In this document: positions 50,992 to 60,763 of the stretch, piece by piece
Layout of the letters: every line of letters begins with the position of its first letter
Position numbering within the stretch: position 1 is the stretch's first letter
NCBI RefSeq assembly: GCF_002214805.1
Contig: NZ_CP019914.1
Span: 2,418,001 to 2,482,000 of the forward strand
Direction of reading: 5' to 3'
Length of the DNA stretch: 64,000 nt
From: Brachyspira hampsonii
GTDB taxonomy: Bacteria; Spirochaetota; Brachyspiria; Brachyspirales; Brachyspiraceae
Translations under genes and position numbers: made by a program
The notes under the pieces: model-generated
What the model was told of the DNA's origin: nothing
The model's database searches: none
Seen by the model: the letters and a program-made list of their open reading frames with translations, nothing else

Positions 50992-51402
50992 TTATTTTAA
51001 ATGTGATGAAAGCTGAAAATATCCTGCATTTATAAGATTATTAATATTTGTAAAACCCAATTTATACATACGCATACAGGCTGTACCTGAACGGTTTCCG
51101 CTTGCACAGTATACTATATATTCTTTATCTTTATCAAGTTTAGACATTTTTTCATTGAATTTAGAATCATCTAAAGGAATATTAATACTGTTTTTTATAT
51201 ACCCGCTTTGCTGAACTTCCATATAACTTCTAACATCTATTAAGCCTATATTTTTATTATTTTTATAAATGGAAACTGCATCATTTACATTTATATTTTT
51301 GAATTTTCCTTTACTTCTTATATTAAAAATAATTTTTCTTATAGTACTTAATATTATAAAAGTTAATATAATCCCTATTATTAAGGTTAAAGCATTATTC
51401 AT
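50992..51402 (-). CDS. membrane-anchored rhodanese-like protein
   Basis: 136 residues. A single N-terminal membrane helix (about 4-22) and a basic linker are followed by a rhodanese domain: VNDAVSIYKNNKNIGLIDVRSYMEVQQSGYIKNSINIPL and the active-site loop YCASGNRSGTACMRMYKLGF with Cys near residue 98. A sulfurtransferase or sulfur-carrier role at the inner membrane is likely. AGGGGG precedes the ATG. It lies 85 bases after tenA on the same strand and may be co-transcribed, which would be notable because thiamine-thiazole synthesis needs sulfur, but it may have its own promoter. Confidence 0.85.
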   Translation of the reverse strand: MNNALTLIIGIILTFIILSTIRKIIFNIRSKGKFKNINVNDAVSIYKNNKNIGLIDVRSYMEVQQSGYIKNSINIPLDDSKFNEKMSKLDKDKEYIVYCASGNRSGTACMRMYKLGFTNINNLINAGYFQLSSHLK

Positions 51403-51486: not shown

Positions 51487-52149
51487 TCACACATTATAAA
51501 AATCATCTAAATTATAAGCATCATTCCAAAATCTGTACTCCCAAACAAAGGCTATATCAAAAGCAATTATCATTTTTTCTTTGACATAATCAGAAGCATT
51601 ATTATATAGCTCATCAATAATTTTAATCATATTTTCTGTTGATTTTGAAAACTCTTCATCAGCATAAGCATCAATCCAGTTTTTGTATGGATTATTTTCT
51701 ATTTTTGCATTTTCTTTTATGTGTTTTCCTACTTCATTATATATCCAAAAGCATGGAAGTATAGCAGCAGCAGCTGCCTCAAAAGCCTCAGTATGAGTCG
51801 TGTTAATTAAAAAACTAGTATAACCAATATTGGCAGTTGTAATTTTATTTGTATTTTTTAATTGAAAAGCGTCTCTGAAATATTTATGTACAATTTCTTC
51901 TTCTACTATATAGGCATTCATAGATGATTTTAAAAAAGCAATAGCATAATCTGCATTATTATTTATTTTTGAAGATATTGTTGCTAATACTTTAGAGTAG
52001 TATTTTAGATATAGGCTGTCTTGTTCTATGTAATAAGCAAATTTTTCTTTATCTAAAGTACCTTCCATAAGCTCTTTATTAAATGGCATATCAATTATTT
52101 TTTTATATAGCCCTTCATTTTTTTTCCAAACTATTTCTGAAAATTTCAT
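51487..52149 (-). CDS. tenA: TenA-family aminopyrimidine aminohydrolase/thiaminase II
   Basis: 220 residues. The family residues are present: YIEQDSLYLKYY (Asp), AAAAAILPCFWIYNEVG with the nucleophile Cys near 134, and AFVWEYRFWNDAYNL with the catalytic Glu near 205. TenA hydrolyses damaged thiamine or aminomethyl-aminopyrimidine to give HMP for salvage. It is 78 bases downstream of the binding lipoprotein in the transcript that begins with a TPP riboswitch, supporting thiamine salvage. The rest of thiamine synthesis is not in the window. Confidence 0.92.
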   Translation of the reverse strand: MKFSEIVWKKNEGLYKKIIDMPFNKELMEGTLDKEKFAYYIEQDSLYLKYYSKVLATISSKINNNADYAIAFLKSSMNAYIVEEEIVHKYFRDAFQLKNTNKITTANIGYTSFLINTTHTEAFEAAAAAILPCFWIYNEVGKHIKENAKIENNPYKNWIDAYADEEFSKSTENMIKIIDELYNNASDYVKEKMIIAFDIAFVWEYRFWNDAYNLDDFYNV

Positions 52150-52227: not shown

Positions 52228-53835
52228 CTATTCTTCTATATATGCATAATTAAATTTATATCTGCCCAAAGGCTCATCAATATAATTTTTTAATTTGGGA
52301 TTAACTACCAAAAAGTCAGTTCTATATATAAAAGGTATAATAGGTACTTCTTCAAAAAGTATAGATTCTGCTTCTTTTAACGCCCCCATTCTCTTCTTTG
52401 CATTTGTTGCCGTAATGGCAAAATCTATTAAAGAATCGTATCTTTCATTTGAAAAGCCTCCGTAATTTATATCGCTATCGCTTGTCATAATTTGAAGCAT
52501 AGTAAGAGGATCATTATAATCACCTGTCCAGCTTGTTCTAGCCATTTGATAATTTCCAGATTCTCTAAAAGGCAGAGTAATTTTTGATTCTTCTGTTCTT
52601 ACAGCTATTTCTATATTAAGTGCTTCTTTCCACATTTGCTGTACTGCTTCCATAACTGTAGTATAAAATCCTGATGATACTTTTAACTCTAAAATAGGAA
52701 AGTTTTCTCCATTTGGGTATCCCGCTTCGGCTAATAATTTTCTTGCTTCTTCAACATTTTTATTATAATTATTAGCTATAATATAATTACTGCTTTCTTC
52801 TCTGAATGATTTTTCAAGTCCTTTTACTGCTGGAGGTACGAATGCTTCTGCTGATATTAATTTACCATATCCTATATTTGATACTATATAGTTTCTGTCT
52901 ATTGCTAGAGATAATGCCTTTCTTACTCTTTTATCAGATAGTGTTTTATCTTTAGTATTTAAGTCTATATAATAAATACCTATAATATCGCTTACTGCCA
53001 TTAGATTTTCTTTTATAAGATTTTCTATCTCTCCAATAGGGGGAGCATTTATAGAAAAATCAACATCTCCTGTCCTAACAGCATTAAGTGAAATATATTC
53101 ATCGGCTATCAAAACGAAATTTATTTTTTTAGAAACTTGATTTGTATAATTCCAATAATTAGTATTAATTTCAAAAACTATTTTTTCATCAGGTTTTCTT
53201 TCTGTCATTTTATAAGCACCGTTACATATATAAGTATCAGGATTCCAAGTCCAATCATCACCGTATTTTTCTATTATATCCTCTCTTACAGGCATATATA
53301 CGCCTCCTGATGCTAATAAGTCAGTAAAATATATTGTAGGCTCTTCAAGTTCTATCACTAATGTATTTTCATCTATAGCCGTAACTCCTAGATTTTCTAC
53401 GCTCTGTTTGCCTCTTATTATGTCTTTAGCATTTTTTATATATTCCATTAAATAGCTTAATGGCGAAGCTGTTTTTGGGTCTGCTGCTCTTCTATAAGAA
53501 TAAACAAAATCATCAGCTGTTACTTTTTTACCGTCGCTCCATTTTGCATTATCTCTTAAATGAAATGTATATGTTAGTTTATCATCGCTTATATCCCATT
53601 TTTCAGCAACGCCTTCTACAATATTGCCATTTATATCTTTATTAAGAAGTCCTTCAAATGCATGATTAATATAAATGTATCCGTAAGTTTCATCATTTAA
53701 AGTGGGGTCTATAGTATTAAGTTCATATCCTAGATTTACAGTGATTTCATCTTTAATATTTTTCGTTTGTTTTTTACAAGATATGAAGGATACAAATAGA
53801 AATAACAAAATAATAAATTTTTGTATTGAAGTCAT
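52228..53835 (-). CDS. OppA-type (SBP family 5) binding lipoprotein under TPP riboswitch control
   Basis: 535 residues. Lipoprotein signal MTSIQKFIILLFLFVSFISC (Cys20). The mature part is a full family-5 solute-binding protein: LNTIDPTLNDETYGYIYINHAFEGLL, YTFHLRDNAKWSDGKKVTADDFVYSYRRAADPKTASPL, DKRVRKALSLAIDRNYIV and VPIIPFIYRTDFLVVNPKLKN. These usually bind peptides, nickel or murein peptides for ABC uptake. Here the gene is behind a TPP riboswitch and before tenA, so the ligand may be a thiamine-related compound or precursor. No permease or ATPase gene adjoins it. Confidence 0.9.
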   Translation of the reverse strand: MTSIQKFIILLFLFVSFISCKKQTKNIKDEITVNLGYELNTIDPTLNDETYGYIYINHAFEGLLNKDINGNIVEGVAEKWDISDDKLTYTFHLRDNAKWSDGKKVTADDFVYSYRRAADPKTASPLSYLMEYIKNAKDIIRGKQSVENLGVTAIDENTLVIELEEPTIYFTDLLASGGVYMPVREDIIEKYGDDWTWNPDTYICNGAYKMTERKPDEKIVFEINTNYWNYTNQVSKKINFVLIADEYISLNAVRTGDVDFSINAPPIGEIENLIKENLMAVSDIIGIYYIDLNTKDKTLSDKRVRKALSLAIDRNYIVSNIGYGKLISAEAFVPPAVKGLEKSFREESSNYIIANNYNKNVEEARKLLAEAGYPNGENFPILELKVSSGFYTTVMEAVQQMWKEALNIEIAVRTEESKITLPFRESGNYQMARTSWTGDYNDPLTMLQIMTSDSDINYGGFSNERYDSLIDFAITATNAKKRMGALKEAESILFEEVPIIPFIYRTDFLVVNPKLKNYIDEPLGRYKFNYAYIEE

Positions 53836-53929
53836 AAAAAGCTCCTTGATATATTAAAAAAATAGAGATTTTTATAACACCGTTTGTTTTGTTTTATTGA
53901 AATTTTTAGTCTTGCTTGATATTTTTTAA

Positions 53930-53960
53930 TAAAACAAGACCAACTTTAGAAAAGGTCTCA
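53930..53960 (-). terminator. candidate terminator in the TPP leader (expression platform)
   Basis: On the minus strand GAGACC and GGTCTT arms (5-6 bp) with a 12-base loop, followed by TGTTTTATT, between the riboswitch and the gene. It could be the transcription-termination arm switched by TPP. The stem is modest and an alternative antiterminator was not worked out. Confidence 0.45.
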
Positions 53961-53993
53961 TTTTATTAGCCGTATTTGAAAAATTAATAAAAG

Positions 53994-54088
53994 AGATAAT
54001 TCCCTACGCTGGCATTACCCAAACAGGTTATAAGGGTCGAAGTCAAACTATTTAAACTTCCTCTCAGCCTTTTCAAGCTCCCCAGTTT
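53994..54088 (-). ncRNA. TPP riboswitch (THI element)
   Basis: On the minus strand the conserved elements occur in order: CTGGGGAGC, then GGCTGAGAGGAAG (the pyrimidine-sensing CUGAGA), a variable P3 arm, GACCCTTATAACCTG, and GGGTAATGCCAGCGTAGGGAA (pyrophosphate-sensing half). This is a complete canonical aptamer. It lies about 160 bases upstream of the OppA-type gene ATG at 53835, in the same direction, with tenA behind. TPP binding is expected to turn the operon off. Confidence 0.96.
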
Positions 54089-54235
54089 TATACCAAAAAT
54101 GATATAGTATTTTTATTTTTATATCAAGCATTTACTTATAGAATTTTTTAAAAATCATGTTCTTTTAATAGTATTAGTATAAAAATTAAAATATTTTTTA
54201 ATTGCATAAAATATAAAGAAAATATGATGAGAAAA

Positions 54236-54294: not shown

Positions 54295-54621
54295 TTATTT
54301 ATGGTTCATTTTCAATATGTCAATAAGCTCATTTATTAAATTTTTTTCGCTTATTGCAGTCATTAAATGATCCTGTGCATGTATAAAAAGTAAGTTTATT
54401 ACAAAACTTTCGCCATTAGCTTCTTTCGATATTAAATCAGTTTGGTATTGATGGGACTGCAGTAATAATTGATCAGCTTCATTCATTTTTTTATCGGATT
54501 CTTCAAATTTATTTTCTTTAGCAAGCCTTAAAGCCTCATAAGCTAAACTCTTACTTTCTCCGGCTAATGCTATAATCGGAAATACATTTTCTTCCATAAA
54601 TGTTTCATAATCTTGTGTCAT
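54295..54621 (-). CDS. PTS lactose/cellobiose-family IIA component
   Basis: 108 residues. The three-helix IIA of the lactose/chitobiose family: IIALAGESKSLAYEALRLAKENKFEES, then NEADQLLLQSHQYQTDLI, and the phosphorylation-site region VINLLFIHAQDHLMTAI, where the His of HAQDHLM (about residue 80) accepts phosphate from HPr. It is last of the five-gene operon IIB-IIC-IIC-mupG-IIA and starts 20 bases after mupG. Confidence 0.92.
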   Translation of the reverse strand: MTQDYETFMEENVFPIIALAGESKSLAYEALRLAKENKFEESDKKMNEADQLLLQSHQYQTDLISKEANGESFVINLLFIHAQDHLMTAISEKNLINELIDILKMNHK

Positions 54622-54641
54622 AAGTAATAAACTCCATAAAA

Positions 54642-55724
54642 TTATTCTATTATAATAAATCTTTTAGCCGGACTTATATAATCGAGCAGAAATAAATATT
54701 CATCTTTAATTCTTCCTACTACATTAGTTCTTCCGGTATTTTTTAAATCTTTCAAAGCTATTTGCATTTCTCCGCTATAGCTTCCATATTCTGATGAATC
54801 TATTAGTATATCTCCTCTTTTTATATCGGAAACTGCATTAAATATTTTGAAATTATGTCCTCTATATTTTGCTCTTGTATCTGAAGATCTTATAACATCT
54901 GCAGAAGCATCTAATCTATTTTGATGAAGCATATTTAATACAATACTTTTTTCCTCTTTTGGAATTGAATTTACTAATTCTGCTTTAAAAGTTATTAATC
55001 TTTTATCCATATTATATAATGTTTTTAAAGTATTTTCATTTGCATAACAGTTAGCAATGAAAACACAATCAACGCCAAGAGCAAATAATTCCATAGCTTG
55101 AATATCTATAGGCATATTTCTATGTTCTTCTAAAGAGCAAATACCATCGCTTACAGGCCAAGGTCCGAAAGCGGCTTCTTTGGCATTTACAAACGCAGAT
55201 GAGCTTATAGAATATTTTTTAAAACGTTTCATACTGTTTTTAAAAAGTGTTCTGTCTAGCCCTGTATATGCATGAGGATAAAAATTATAACAGCCTATCA
55301 GATTATCTGTATTAGGATAATATTTCATTATATTATCTAGATAATTTGTATCATTGCTCATATTTAATTCTATCTTTAAATCATATTCATTGTATGTCAT
55401 TAAACTTTCTTCATTGCCTGTAAATCCTAAATCCAATCTTACAGCCCAAGCTCCTAATTTATGGAAGAAGTCAAGATTTTTATAATCTATATCCAGATGT
55501 TTAAATACAGCAGGAGATATATCTAAAGTAGTTCTTATTCCTTTTTCTTTGGCATAATTTATAATAGTTGAAAATTCATTAGTTATTTCATCTTTAGATT
55601 TATCGACAGAGAGCAGGCACATAAAACATCTTGTAAATCCGTATTTAGATGCCAAATCTATATAAGATTTGTTATCTTCCATTTTTGAGTGAAATGGGTA
55701 AATAGATATTCCTAACTCTTTCAT
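54642..55724 (-). CDS. mupG: 6-phospho-N-acetylmuramidase (MupG/DUF871 family)
   Basis: 360 residues. A TIM-barrel part (1-240) starts LGISIYPFHSKMEDNKSYIDLASKYGFTRCFMCLLS and includes TTLDISPAVFKHL, VRLDLGF and GCYNFYPHAYTGLD. A C-terminal cyclophilin-like domain follows, with SSDTRAKYRGHNF and RGDILIDSSEYGSYSGEMQIA. This is the MupG/outer-surface-protein family that cleaves intracellular MurNAc-6P-linked disaccharide. Placed inside a PTS operon, it would split the imported and phosphorylated sugar. The cell-wall disaccharide as substrate follows from the family, not from direct evidence. Confidence 0.85.
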   Translation of the reverse strand: MKELGISIYPFHSKMEDNKSYIDLASKYGFTRCFMCLLSVDKSKDEITNEFSTIINYAKEKGIRTTLDISPAVFKHLDIDYKNLDFFHKLGAWAVRLDLGFTGNEESLMTYNEYDLKIELNMSNDTNYLDNIMKYYPNTDNLIGCYNFYPHAYTGLDRTLFKNSMKRFKKYSISSSAFVNAKEAAFGPWPVSDGICSLEEHRNMPIDIQAMELFALGVDCVFIANCYANENTLKTLYNMDKRLITFKAELVNSIPKEEKSIVLNMLHQNRLDASADVIRSSDTRAKYRGHNFKIFNAVSDIKRGDILIDSSEYGSYSGEMQIALKDLKNTGRTNVVGRIKDEYLFLLDYISPAKRFIIIE

Positions 55725-55755
55725 TTATATGTTCTCCTATTTTTATCTTTTAGAT

Positions 55756-57081
55756 TTATTCATTATCCGGTAAAGTTTTAGCATAAGCATTGATAAAAGG
55801 AGTATATATTAAGTATGACAATAATACTAAACATAAACTCAAAATCATAGCAGGTACACTTAAATTAGTAGATAAGAAAGCACCTAATGGACCAGGAGTT
55901 GTCCAAGGCACTAAAGAAACAATTTTTCCTACAATACCTATTTTTAAAACTGTATATGCTATTATGGCATTAATTATAGGTACACAAATGAAGGGTATAA
56001 ATAGTATAGGGTTCATAACAACAGGAGTACCAAACATAATAGGTTCATTAATATTAAATAACCCAGGTATTACTGATAATCTTCCAATAGATTTAAGATG
56101 GGCATTTTTACTTAATGCCATAGCTATTGCTAAACCTAATGTAGCACCTGCTCCTCCTATATATACATAAACATTAAAGAACTCTCCTGCTACTACTTTT
56201 GGCAAAGCCTCTCCAGCCTGTAAAGCTGCTTGATTCAAAGCCAAATTTGATAATGTTATTGTAGTGATTACAGCATTAACAACATTAGCACCATGTATTC
56301 CAACAAACCATAATATATGTATAACTAAAAGAAGTATTATTACTGATGGTAAACTATCTGATATTGATAATAAAGGAGAAATAATTTTCATTATCAAATT
56401 AGGTACAAGTATCATCATATTTTTCTGTATTATTATATTTATTATTTGGAATAATACTCCTACAACAGCTATAGGTATTATTATTTCAAAAGATTTTGCT
56501 ATTGCCGGCGGTACGGAATCAGGAAGTTTTATAGTCATTTTTTTACTTACCAAGAATCTGTAAATTTCTATTGAAATTATACCGCCTATTATAGCAGAGA
56601 ATATTCCTTTAGCATCTAAAAATCTTGCATCTAATACATTAATATTGCTTCCTGCTTCTACTAAAAATATTCCTGCAAAATCTTCAGCAACAGATAAAGC
56701 ATTTACCTTAGCTGCTATAAGGAAAAATGCAAATAAAGATAAGAATCCTCCAGTAACACTGCTTAAATTATAAGAACCAGCCAAAGAATATCCTATACCA
56801 TAAGCAACGAATACTGATAATATCCCCATACTCACATTGAATATTTGAATAAAATTTCCTGTGAAATTTTTAGCAAAATTATCATACCAACCCATATATA
56901 AAAAATTACTTTTATCTGTAAAAGGTAAATTAAATATCAAAAGTACAAAAGAACCTACTATTAAGAAAGGCATAGTATAAATAAATGCATCTTTAATAGC
57001 ATTTAAATATCTGTTATTAGCTAATTTAGCTGCTGCTGGTGTTATTTTATTTTCTATAAAATTAATAATTTTGTCGTTCAT
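55756..57081 (-). CDS. PTS cellobiose-family IIC permease, second copy
   Basis: 441 residues, about ten membrane segments. Typical motifs are YLNAIKDAFIYTMPFLIVGSFVLLIFNLPF, WFVGIHGANVVNAVI, GGAGATLGLAIAMALSKNAHLKSIGRLSVIPGLFNINEPIMFGTPVVMNPILFIPFI (the NxNEPxxFGxP substrate motif). Nearly the same over most of its length as the copy upstream; differences cluster at residues 60-75, 125-145 and 225-245. It lies 18 bases after the first IIC and 31 before mupG. Confidence 0.92.
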   Translation of the reverse strand: MNDKIINFIENKITPAAAKLANNRYLNAIKDAFIYTMPFLIVGSFVLLIFNLPFTDKSNFLYMGWYDNFAKNFTGNFIQIFNVSMGILSVFVAYGIGYSLAGSYNLSSVTGGFLSLFAFFLIAAKVNALSVAEDFAGIFLVEAGSNINVLDARFLDAKGIFSAIIGGIISIEIYRFLVSKKMTIKLPDSVPPAIAKSFEIIIPIAVVGVLFQIINIIIQKNMMILVPNLIMKIISPLLSISDSLPSVIILLLVIHILWFVGIHGANVVNAVITTITLSNLALNQAALQAGEALPKVVAGEFFNVYVYIGGAGATLGLAIAMALSKNAHLKSIGRLSVIPGLFNINEPIMFGTPVVMNPILFIPFICVPIINAIIAYTVLKIGIVGKIVSLVPWTTPGPLGAFLSTNLSVPAMILSLCLVLLSYLIYTPFINAYAKTLPDNE

Positions 57082-57099
57082 ATTTTTTATCCTTATTTT

Positions 57100-58422
57100 T
57101 TAATTATCTTGTAAAGTTTTAGCATAAGCATTGATGAAAGGAGTATATATTAAATATGATAATAATACTAAACATAAACTCAAAACCATAGCAGGAATAT
57201 TGAAATTTGATGCTATCAAAGCTCCTAAAGGTCCCGGTGTAGTCCAAGTTACAAGAGCTATAATTTTTCCTACAATACCTATTTTCAAAACTGTATATGC
57301 TATTACAGCATTAATTATAGGAACACAAATAAAAGGTATAAATAATATAGGGTTCATAACAATGGGAGTACCAAACATAATAGGCTCATTTATGTTGAAT
57401 ATTCCCGGTATTATAGAAACCCTGCCTATAGATTTTAAATGCTCATTTTTACTTAATGCCATAGCTATTGCTAAACCTAATGTAGCACCTGCTCCTCCTA
57501 TATATACATAAACATTAAAGAACTCTCCTGCTACTACTTTGGGGAAAGCCTCTCCAGCCTGTAAAGCTGCCTGATTCAAAGCTAAATTTGATAATGTTAT
57601 TATGCTGATTATTGCATTGATTACATTTGCCCCATGTATACCTACAAACCATAATATATGTATAATTAAAAGAAGTATTATTACCAATGCTAAACTATCT
57701 GACATTGACAGTAAAGGAGAAGTTATATTATCTATTAGTTTAGAAGTTAACATAAGTAATTTTTTCTGTATTATTATATTTATTATTTGGAATAATATTC
57801 CCACAACAGCTATAGGTATTATTATTTCAAAAGATTTTGCTATTGCCGGGGGTACGGAATCAGGGAGTTTTATAGTCATTTTTTTGCTTACTAAGGATCT
57901 ATAAATTTCTATTGAAATTATACCGCCTATTATAGCAGAGAATATTCCTTCAGCACCTAAAAATCTTGCATCTAATACATTAATATTACTTGCGGCTTCT
58001 ACTAAAAATATTCCGGCAAAATCTTCAGAAACAGATAAAGCACTTACTTTAGCCGATATAATTAAAAATGCAAATAAAGATAAGAACCCTCCAGTAACAC
58101 TGCTTAAATTATAAGAAGCAGCCAAAGAATATCCTATACCATAGGCAATAAATAATGATAATAAGCCCATACTTACATTGAATATTTGAATGAAATGTCC
58201 TGAAAATGCAGCTGTAAAATTATCATACCATTCAATATATAAAAAGCTATTTTCATCTTTAAAAGGTAGGTTAAATATTAAAAGTATAAAAGAGCCTACT
58301 ATTAAAAACGGCGTAATATAATCAAATGCATCTTTTATTGATGAGAGATATCTATTATTTGATAATTTAGCTGCAAATGGAGCTATTTTGTTTTCTATAT
58401 AACTAATAATTTTATCATTCAT
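57100..58422 (-). CDS. PTS cellobiose-family IIC permease, first copy
   Basis: 440 residues with the same ten-helix layout and the same IPGIFNINEPIMFGTPIVMNP substrate motif. It is a tandem paralogue of the following gene. Both are intact, so the single IIA and IIB in the operon probably serve two permeases with slightly different substrate range, or the two form heterodimers. It is 22 bases after the IIB gene. Confidence 0.92.
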   Translation of the reverse strand: MNDKIISYIENKIAPFAAKLSNNRYLSSIKDAFDYITPFLIVGSFILLIFNLPFKDENSFLYIEWYDNFTAAFSGHFIQIFNVSMGLLSLFIAYGIGYSLAASYNLSSVTGGFLSLFAFLIISAKVSALSVSEDFAGIFLVEAASNINVLDARFLGAEGIFSAIIGGIISIEIYRSLVSKKMTIKLPDSVPPAIAKSFEIIIPIAVVGILFQIINIIIQKKLLMLTSKLIDNITSPLLSMSDSLALVIILLLIIHILWFVGIHGANVINAIISIITLSNLALNQAALQAGEAFPKVVAGEFFNVYVYIGGAGATLGLAIAMALSKNEHLKSIGRVSIIPGIFNINEPIMFGTPIVMNPILFIPFICVPIINAVIAYTVLKIGIVGKIIALVTWTTPGPLGALIASNFNIPAMVLSLCLVLLSYLIYTPFINAYAKTLQDN

Positions 58423-58444
58423 AATATGTTCTAATATTAACAGA

Positions 58445-58750
58445 TTATAATTTTAAATTTAAAGCAAAATCTAATATCTTAGCTCCATCCATTTTTCCAT
58501 AGTCTTTAAAATCTATAACATCTAATGGCTTTCCTTTAGCATTAGCTTTTTTAGTTAGTTCATTTTTCATGTATTTAACCTGAGGTCCTAATAGGAAAAT
58601 ATCATAACTATCCGCTAATTCTTCAAATCTTGAAATACTTGCAGCTTCTATCTCTGCATCGATATTGTCTGCTTTAGCTTTATCCTGCATCTTTTTTACT
58701 ATCATACTGGTAGACATACCAGCAGAACATAAAAGTAAAATCTTTTTCAT
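58445..58750 (-). CDS. PTS lactose/cellobiose-family IIB component
   Basis: 101 residues. The phosphocysteine loop is KKILLLCSAGMSTSMIVKKM with Cys8, the family form, followed by LLGPQVKYMKNEL near residue 55. It carries phosphate from IIA to the sugar at IIC. AAAGGAG precedes the ATG. First gene of the operon, divergent from the PRD regulator at 58904 with a 153-base gap that would hold both promoters. Confidence 0.93.
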   Translation of the reverse strand: MKKILLLCSAGMSTSMIVKKMQDKAKADNIDAEIEAASISRFEELADSYDIFLLGPQVKYMKNELTKKANAKGKPLDVIDFKDYGKMDGAKILDFALNLKL

Positions 58751-58903: not shown

Positions 58904-60763
58904 ATGAATATTAAGTATATAAAAGAAATATTATCACTGTTGTCAACAGATTCATATATAACTGCTGAAGCCTTATCAAAACAATTAAATGTAAGTGAAA
59001 AAACAATCAGAACAAAGATAAGAGAAATCAATTATGAATTGCAGAAACTTAATATAAATATAGAATCAAAACCTAGATACGGATATAAATTGGTATGTGA
59101 TAATTATGATAATTTTAAATCTATTGATTTTTTATCTAATATTAATAATGATATTGATTACAGAATTAGAATTATTTTTAAATATTTATTAGAAATGAAT
59201 AGTGAATATATAAAGACTGATGATATATGCGATTCTTTAGATGTATCTAAAACTACTTTAACAAATATATTCAAGATTATGGAATATAATTTAAAATATT
59301 ATAATCTTACACTTGAAAGAAGACCTAATTATGGCATAAGATTAATAGGAAATGAATTTGATATAAGAAATTTTATAATATGTAATTATTTAAATGATTT
59401 TTTATATGAAAATAATATGAATGAAAAATTAATAAGTATAATTATAAATTTTCTCAATAAATATGAAATAAAATTTTCAGAAATTAATTTAGAAAATTTT
59501 ATTCAATATATAAATGTTTCAATAAGCAGAATAAAAAATAATAATTTTATATGTGATTGTGAGAATGATATTGTTAAAGATATAGCTGAAGAGATAAGAT
59601 TATCAGAAGAATTGATAAAGCAGATACAAAATGAAATCGATATAAAGTTTAATGGTGCGGAAATTATATATATAGCTATACATATAGCTTCTAAAAATTT
59701 ATTTTCTATTAAAAATTATAATTCTGTAATACAGGATAAGTTTTCTGCTATAATTTATAAAATGCTTGATATGGTATATAAAAATTTAAAAATAGATTTA
59801 AGAAATAATTTTAATTTGATACTTCTTCTTAATCAGCATATGATACCTTTGGATATAAGAATAAGGTACAATATATTTCAAAAAAATCCTATGCTTAATG
59901 ATATAAAAAATAATTACAGTCTTTCATTTTTATTAGCCTCGGAAAGTGCTGTGATATTGAAGGAGTATTATAACAAAGATATATCAGAAGATGAAATAGG
60001 ATATTTATCATTATTGTTTCAAATAGGATTAGAAGAAACAGTAGAAAATATAAATAAAATGAATATATTAATAGTTTGCGGCAGCGGAAAAACAACTTCA
60101 AATTTATTGGTTACAAAGTATAGAAAAGAATTTAATGATTACATAGAAAATATTTATGCTGTAGATTTAATTGGATTAAAGGATTTTAATTTTTATCAGG
60201 TAGATTATGTATTTTCTACCGTTCCGATTAGTTTTAAATTGCCTGTTCCAATAGTCTATATAAGTAATTTTTTGAAGAGTGATGATATTATTAATGTTAA
60301 AAATTCATTTGAATCTTTAAATAGAAATATTATTTTAGATTATTATAAAAAAGAAATGTTTACAACAGATATAAAAGGTGATACAAAAGAAGAAATCATA
60401 AAGAATATATGTGTGAATATAAAAAAATATAAAAATATACCTGATAATTTTTATGAATTGGTCATGAAAAGGGAGCAATTAGCAGAAACGGATATTGGTA
60501 ATTTAGTTGCTATACCGCATCCTATAGAGGTTGTTACAAAAGATACATTTGTGTATGTTGCTGTATTAGATAAGCCTATATTATGGCAGAAGAATAATGT
60601 TCAGGTGGTATTTTTGATTTCGGTATCAAATAAAAATGATGATTTAAAAAAATTTTATCAATATACTATTAATTTTCTTCTCAATGAGAGCAGTGTAAAG
60701 AAATTAATAGATAATAAAACTTTTGAAAATTTAATTTTTTTACTTAAAAGTAATTCAGAATAA
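58904..60763 (+). CDS. PRD-containing transcriptional regulator with EIIB-like and EIIA domains
   Basis: 619 residues. N-terminal HTH (SYITAEALSKQLNVSEKTIRTKIREIN) and a second HTH near 95-125, two PRD domains (about 170-380) each with phosphorylatable His (for example YIAIHIASKNL and LLNQHMIPLDIRIR), an EIIB-like domain from MNILIVCGSGKTTSNLL (about 385) and an EIIA domain near 480-619 with AIPHPIEVV. This is the MtlR/LicR-type activator layout. Phosphorylation by the PTS should tune its activity on the divergent IIB-IIC-IIC-mupG-IIA operon. It is followed 12 bases later by an HPr-like gene. Confidence 0.9.
   Translation: MNIKYIKEILSLLSTDSYITAEALSKQLNVSEKTIRTKIREINYELQKLNINIESKPRYGYKLVCDNYDNFKSIDFLSNINNDIDYRIRIIFKYLLEMNSEYIKTDDICDSLDVSKTTLTNIFKIMEYNLKYYNLTLERRPNYGIRLIGNEFDIRNFIICNYLNDFLYENNMNEKLISIIINFLNKYEIKFSEINLENFIQYINVSISRIKNNNFICDCENDIVKDIAEEIRLSEELIKQIQNEIDIKFNGAEIIYIAIHIASKNLFSIKNYNSVIQDKFSAIIYKMLDMVYKNLKIDLRNNFNLILLLNQHMIPLDIRIRYNIFQKNPMLNDIKNNYSLSFLLASESAVILKEYYNKDISEDEIGYLSLLFQIGLEETVENINKMNILIVCGSGKTTSNLLVTKYRKEFNDYIENIYAVDLIGLKDFNFYQVDYVFSTVPISFKLPVPIVYISNFLKSDDIINVKNSFESLNRNIILDYYKKEMFTTDIKGDTKEEIIKNICVNIKKYKNIPDNFYELVMKREQLAETDIGNLVAIPHPIEVVTKDTFVYVAVLDKPILWQKNNVQVVFLISVSNKNDDLKKFYQYTINFLLNESSVKKLIDNKTFENLIFLLKSNSE

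Follow-up and report, generated by a model that had tools for sequence, protein, structure and literature searches.

The stretch of DNA analysed here, which we call the window, comprises 64,000 nucleotides of a complete, 3.19 Mb Brachyspira genome. It carries a TPP riboswitch followed by an oppA-type gene and tenA, with these features:

54099..54127 (-): promoter-like site TTGATA-17 nt-TATCAT for the riboswitch-oppA transcript (consensus scan and leader alignment)
53984..54094 (-): complete TPP riboswitch aptamer (RF00059, 61.6 bits)
53927..53968 (-): terminator-like hairpin (15 bp, 3' end rich in U) and an antiterminator-like upstream pairing that competes with it (from folding; putative function)
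53832..53878 (-): hairpin GUUAUAAAAAUCUC / GAGCUUUUUAUGAC over part of the Shine-Dalgarno sequence and the AUG (from folding; putative function)
52228..53835 (-): oppA-type (SBP_bac_5) substrate-binding lipoprotein of 535 aa, member of a TPP-linked clade (PF00496, tree)
51487..52149 (-): tenA, thiaminase II / aminopyrimidine hydrolase family (PF03070, 106.8 bits)
50992..51402 (-): rhodanese-domain protein, a syntenic neighbour (PF00581, 60.6 bits)

An earlier, sequence-only reading had placed a complete TPP aptamer upstream of an OppA-type lipoprotein gene, with tenA next in the same direction and no ABC permease adjacent, and our searches bear this out. The aptamer exceeds the RF00059 gathering score of 54.3 bits, matches all 105 positions of the model (1-105; window E-value 1.2e-9) and reaches 54094, six bases beyond the end given before. 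The lipoprotein ORF has a lipobox (FISC) and matches PF00496 (SBP_bac_5) at 297.6 bits against a gathering score of 32.4, tenA follows it in the window's genome, and no ABC permease or ATPase gene of an oppBCDF set lies beside it in the window.

The promoter-like site agrees with the consensus at 10 of 12 positions, in a scan where such matches barely exceed chance, and is kept in most of 25 aligned leaders. The 78-nt gap between the oppA-type gene and tenA is without a terminator-like site, and in the window's genome the two genes are probably co-transcribed. The rhodanese gene lies downstream of tenA in about 14 genomes and has a promoter-like site of its own (51457-51429); its membership of the riboswitch-oppA-tenA unit is doubtful.

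Upstream of the riboswitch, positions 54295-58750 (-) encode a PTS IIA protein, MupG, two tandem and very similar PTS EIIC-type permeases (55756-57081 and 57100-58422) and a small IIB-like protein. This is probably a cell-wall sugar uptake cluster, and a BglG-like regulator (58904-60763, +) adjoins it.

Predicted switching in the leader

A 148-nt expression platform separates the OppA-type gene from the aptamer, the core of which is invariant across the aligned leaders of 25 genomes. Folding predicts two elements in this platform. The first is the terminator-like hairpin (-14.6 kcal/mol in the window) together with the pairing that competes with it, whose 5' strand starts at the aptamer end; both fold in 24 of the 25 leaders and are absent in G019. 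The second is the hairpin at the start codon: GUUAUAAAAAUC, kept in all or nearly all 25 leaders in the alignment, is predicted to pair with the Shine-Dalgarno/AUG region in every one of them (mean z -4.1). The probability that the AUG is unpaired is ~0 within this hairpin and 0.56-0.99 when the hairpin's 5' strand is kept unpaired. That strand can alternatively form 7-10 bp with UUAUAAC(C) of the aptamer core, at -7.6 to -8.8 kcal/mol. By prediction, therefore, the leader has the expression platform expected of a TPP riboswitch.

The simplest reading of these foldings is an OFF switch. With TPP bound, the core would stay in the aptamer and the strand would be freed to hide the AUG; plentiful TPP would probably also cause early termination. 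With TPP absent, the aptamer core would capture the strand and leave the AUG accessible, and the OppA-type lipoprotein would be made when TPP is scarce.

Genus-wide linkage and a separate clade

We next consider how closely the riboswitch and the binding protein are tied in Brachyspira; the genome counts given here rest on family and protein searches. An orthologue of the TPP-linked OppA is present in 25 of 26 Brachyspira genomes at 71-100% identity, the next-best homologues reaching at most 55%. In all 25 a TPP switch in the same orientation precedes the gene by 133-221 nt, and because the arrangement recurs throughout the genus, the linkage of aptamer and gene is not due to chance. The 26th genome, G012, is without both the orthologue and its switch and keeps the thiM switch. 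The oppA copy of G010, a genome that also keeps the thiM switch, has a frameshift close to the lipobox or a sequencing error.

The window's genome encodes 16 OppA-type proteins, and only two sites in its 3.19 Mb match RF00059 over the cut-off. The other 15 proteins are 40-52% identical to the TPP-linked one over the alignment, and a TPP switch was found at none of them. The sequence-only reading had proposed a comparison with these paralogues, asking whether the TPP-linked branch is separate and always riboswitch-linked. Both proved to be the case: in a maximum-likelihood tree the switch-linked proteins form one clade with support of 100/100, and the upstream switch is there in each of the 25. 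The stem of the clade is long (0.56 changes per column) and its crown short, and its sister is a group of unswitched OppA copies (L004-L006). When genome contigs were searched with a profile of the TPP-linked alignment, only Brachyspira was found, the closest named locus being from B. hampsonii (96%). No OppA-type protein was found among the first downstream ORFs of ~89 TPP switches from spirochaetes other than Brachyspira.

Only two OppC-type permeases are encoded in the window's genome for the 16 OppA-type proteins, which makes permease sharing likely, as had been supposed for this lipoprotein from the start; it likely uses a shared Opp permease. Orphan OppAs that share permeases are known from Borrelia, with five binding proteins and two permeases, and from E. 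coli MppA (PMC5736914). Most Brachyspira binding proteins have no assigned ligand, both the OppA-type ones (16 in the window's own genome) and the NMT1/SsuA-like ones (6 to 11 in several genomes).

The binding pocket and its possible ligands

By sequence, the nearest solved relatives of the lipoprotein are OppA and MppA, and all of the nearest ones bind peptides. It stays below the cut-off of the OppA equivalog NCBIfam PRK15104 (347.6 against 947 bits), and its only family matches are SBP_bac_5 in Pfam and SBP_bac_5-type models in NCBIfam, with none to the NMT1 / ThiB models of the ThiY / ThiB family. An AlphaFold model from a shallow 21-row alignment (mean pLDDT 61.9) was too poor for use. 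We took published contact residues of Yersinia OppA (PMC9967938), extended to 37 positions, and mapped them by alignment. The pocket residues are thus predicted ones, their positions transferred from other OppA proteins rather than from a structure of this protein.

All 25 TPP-linked proteins keep the equivalents of the peptide anchors Asp419, Arg413, Arg404 and Trp416. In OppA, Asp419 holds the amino end of the peptide and Arg413 its carboxyl end, and the two anchors expected of an OppA equivalog, an Asp for the one end and an Arg for the other, are present throughout the clade. Because they are conserved, a peptide or a peptide-like zwitterion is a possible ligand. At seven further contact positions the TPP-linked proteins depart from OppA: Tyr109 becomes Leu/Ile/Met, Asn247 Ala, Lys307 Gly, His371 Tyr, Trp397 Ser, Gly415 Ser and Thr438 Tyr, and nearly all of these replacements are fixed within the clade.

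Within the clade, 28 of the 37 contact columns are invariant compared with 222 of the 451 others (p 0.002), and 38% of the contact residues of the TPP-linked protein are private among the genome's OppAs, against 11% elsewhere. These figures suggest that a specific ligand is probably under selection in the TPP-linked clade, and that it probably differs from the ligands of the paralogues. A distinctive pocket does not by itself imply a non-peptide ligand, because most paralogues have many private contact residues; in the divergent paralogue L018 the share is 49%, above that of the TPP-linked protein. The pocket also holds an invariant Asp and four invariant basic residues, Lys418, Arg424, Arg433 and Arg505, which make a thiamine phosphate a possible ligand.

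How, then, should the pairing of a vitamin-sensing leader with a peptide-binding fold be read? One answer is that the protein is a peptide-binding OppA under TPP control, so that thiamine shortage shifts peptide uptake (for amino acids or sulphur, for example) and no vitamer is bound. Such a protein would be expected to keep all of the peptide-anchoring residues, as the clade does, and to have peptide binders as its nearest solved relatives; moreover, spirochaetes do regulate single orphan OppAs individually while their permeases are shared (PMC5736914). We nevertheless think this answer rather unlikely, since TPP switches almost everywhere control thiamine synthesis, salvage and uptake (PMC3766115), no other OppA paralogue of the window's genome has a switch, the pocket columns are unlike those of the paralogues, and in the tree strong conservation follows a long stem.

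Another answer takes the protein for an MppA-like muropeptide binder tied to the neighbouring PTS/MupG cell-wall sugar genes, with the riboswitch incidental. MppA is indeed among the closest solved relatives, and in several genomes MupG and PTS genes are found upstream in the same orientation. This neighbourhood is, however, missing in many others (G001, G009, G011, G013, G016 and G019), whereas the riboswitch is always there, and a terminator-like site and the conserved promoter part the MupG/PTS unit from the riboswitch-oppA unit. A link to cell-wall sugars is on these grounds improbable.

Thiamine salvage in Brachyspira and comparison with known systems

ThiC was found in none of the 26 genomes of the genus, so these bacteria must take up the pyrimidine. 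Searches found ThiE in 24 of 26 genomes and strong ThiD matches likewise in 24, both misses being draft genomes. Thiamine pyrophosphokinase (TPK) was found in two of the 26, G001 and G003 (L249 and L250), and no more; the two group together in the OppA tree. Searches of G003 missed thiD, thiE and tenA, which was left out of the evidence because the assembly is 88% complete and in 990 contigs.

The thiM gene sits on or near a second TPP switch, which lies at G000:C1:390825-390940 in the window's genome. This switch is usually followed by a gene for a Gate-domain (YjiH-like) membrane protein (in the window's genome L047:5385-6734 (-), L002) and then by thiM; a PhzF-family gene sometimes separates the latter two. 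The second switch stands directly before thiM in five genomes (G001, G007, G013, G014 and G015), and in G003 and G019 it was not found, the oppA switch being the only one. With these two patterns taken together, and counting genes on TPP switches only, seven genomes have oppA as the one transport-type gene found under such a switch. In a genome of the sister genus, G027, a TPP switch precedes a ThiXYZ-like ABC operon (L075); none of the TPP switches found in Brachyspira leads such an operon.

Several further observations concern the second locus. The YjiH-like protein is a candidate thiazole or thiamine transporter without a close curated family, its best NCBIfam match scoring 35.5 bits against a cut-off of 300. 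The PhzF-family gene between the YjiH-like gene and thiM occurs in many genomes (L077:2726-3529 (-), L078, L079, L081-L083, L085, L088) and not in the window's. The YjiH-like proteins fall into two classes, one 92-97% (L002, L080, L084, L089, L090) and the other 71-75% (L077-L079, L081-L083, L085, L088) identical to the copy in the window's genome. These classes are at odds with OppA divergence, which suggests that alleles of this gene may have been exchanged between species. Among thiM-type TPP leaders (L080, L084, L085, L086, L090), some have a clear intrinsic terminator, CGAGAUCA...UUGGUCUCGUUUUUUU, and others lack it, so the switching mode of thiM-type leaders varies within the genus. We rejected the pattern of OppA- and YjiH-type losses as a sign of redundancy: the two are never missing from one genome together, but 2 and 7 absences would by chance give ~0.5 such cases.

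The TenA of the window belongs to the PF03070 family, and the catalytic Asp, Cys and Glu of B. subtilis TenA align with it; its score for NCBIfam TIGR04306 (salvage_TenA) is just below the cut-off (125.4 against 130 bits). The gene is adjacent to riboswitch-oppA in 15 of 25 genomes, with a 16th perhaps, split by a contig end. Otherwise it lies elsewhere (7 genomes), is a fragment (one) or was not found (G003); G012 is also without it. In G001, a 70-aa tenA-like fragment follows thiD in a TPP-switched thiM-thiE-thiD region (L116:1465-1677 (-)). That the riboswitch serves tenA, a classical TPP-regulated gene that does lie downstream in the window's genome, and that oppA is merely carried along between them is very improbable and contradicted by the genus-wide synteny, since riboswitch-oppA is intact in nearly all of the genomes in which tenA lies at another site, is a fragment or was not found, and no TPP switch was found at the tenA copies that lie elsewhere.

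These distributions also bear on the sequence-only proposal that the lipoprotein scavenges a thiamine-related compound which TenA then processes. The scavenging part gains from the separate, switch-linked clade, the distinctive predicted pocket and the salvage habit of the genus. Processing of the cargo by TenA is not general, because tenA adjoins the unit in just 15, perhaps 16, of 25 genomes and riboswitch-oppA persists without an intact neighbouring copy. A partnership of the two proteins is plausible in the window's genome and is secondary, not the core of the unit.

We favour, with a probability of roughly 55%, the reading that this is a thiamine-salvage switch of Brachyspira, through which an OppA-type lipoprotein with a remodelled pocket takes a thiamine vitamer and feeds a shared Opp permease. 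It draws on computed results, namely the aptamer and its linkage to oppA throughout the genus, the separateness of the clade, the distinctive residues predicted for the pocket and the failure to detect ThiC; from there we infer the direction of regulation, a vitamer as the ligand, the sharing of a permease and the role of TenA. An orphan member of the OppA family, its pocket remodelled, would catch thiamine, a thiamine phosphate or a pyrimidine from its breakdown and pass the vitamer to the shared permease. Inside the cell, ThiD, ThiM and ThiE would rebuild thiamine phosphate, and TenA, where present, would free the pyrimidine. More tentatively, this SBP_bac_5 protein may have become a receptor dedicated to thiamine vitamers, perhaps to thiamine phosphates, that feeds the general peptide permease. 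If so, Opp would serve as an entry route for a vitamin, and spirochaetes without TPK could draw on TMP or TPP taken up ready-made.

Should the salvage reading be right, it would give a function to one of the many poorly resolved orphan OppA lipoproteins of animal and human gut spirochaetes, and would show how thiamine-auxotrophic Brachyspira obtain thiamine. It would also be a clean case of a riboswitch marking the ligand class of one paralogue among sixteen.

In known regulons of the TPP riboswitch (THI element, RF00059), such as those with ThiBPQ, ThiXYZ, ThiT, YkoEDC or HmpT, a TPP-sensing leader likewise precedes a transport component in a thiamine-salvaging organism. In Brachyspira, by contrast, the binding protein is of the SBP_bac_5 family and is encoded without a permease or ATPase. 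The TenA-ThiY system of the Bacillus halodurans type salvages base-degraded thiamine. In that system, as at the Brachyspira locus, tenA goes with a binding protein (periplasmic or a lipoprotein) under TPP control, but Brachyspira has an OppA-type protein where ThiY would stand, and the linkage to tenA is not universal. Compared with Salmonella/E. coli OppA and MppA, the lipoprotein gives a match of ~291 bits across the whole protein and keeps the equivalents of Asp419, Arg404 and Arg413, whereas the seven contact residues from Tyr109 to Thr438 listed above are replaced. With Borrelia OppA1-5 and E. coli MppA it shares a surplus of OppA copies over permeases (lipoproteins in the spirochaetes), individual regulation and membrane components that are probably shared (PMC5736914); in Brachyspira, however, regulation falls to a riboswitch that senses a vitamin, and a plain peptide is probably not what the protein binds. 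Searches of the open-access full-text literature found no earlier report that connects TPP riboswitches to OppA, to oligopeptides, to YjiH or to Brachyspira. TPP-switch control, OppA-type binding proteins and shared permeases are all familiar one by one, and what is new is their combination.
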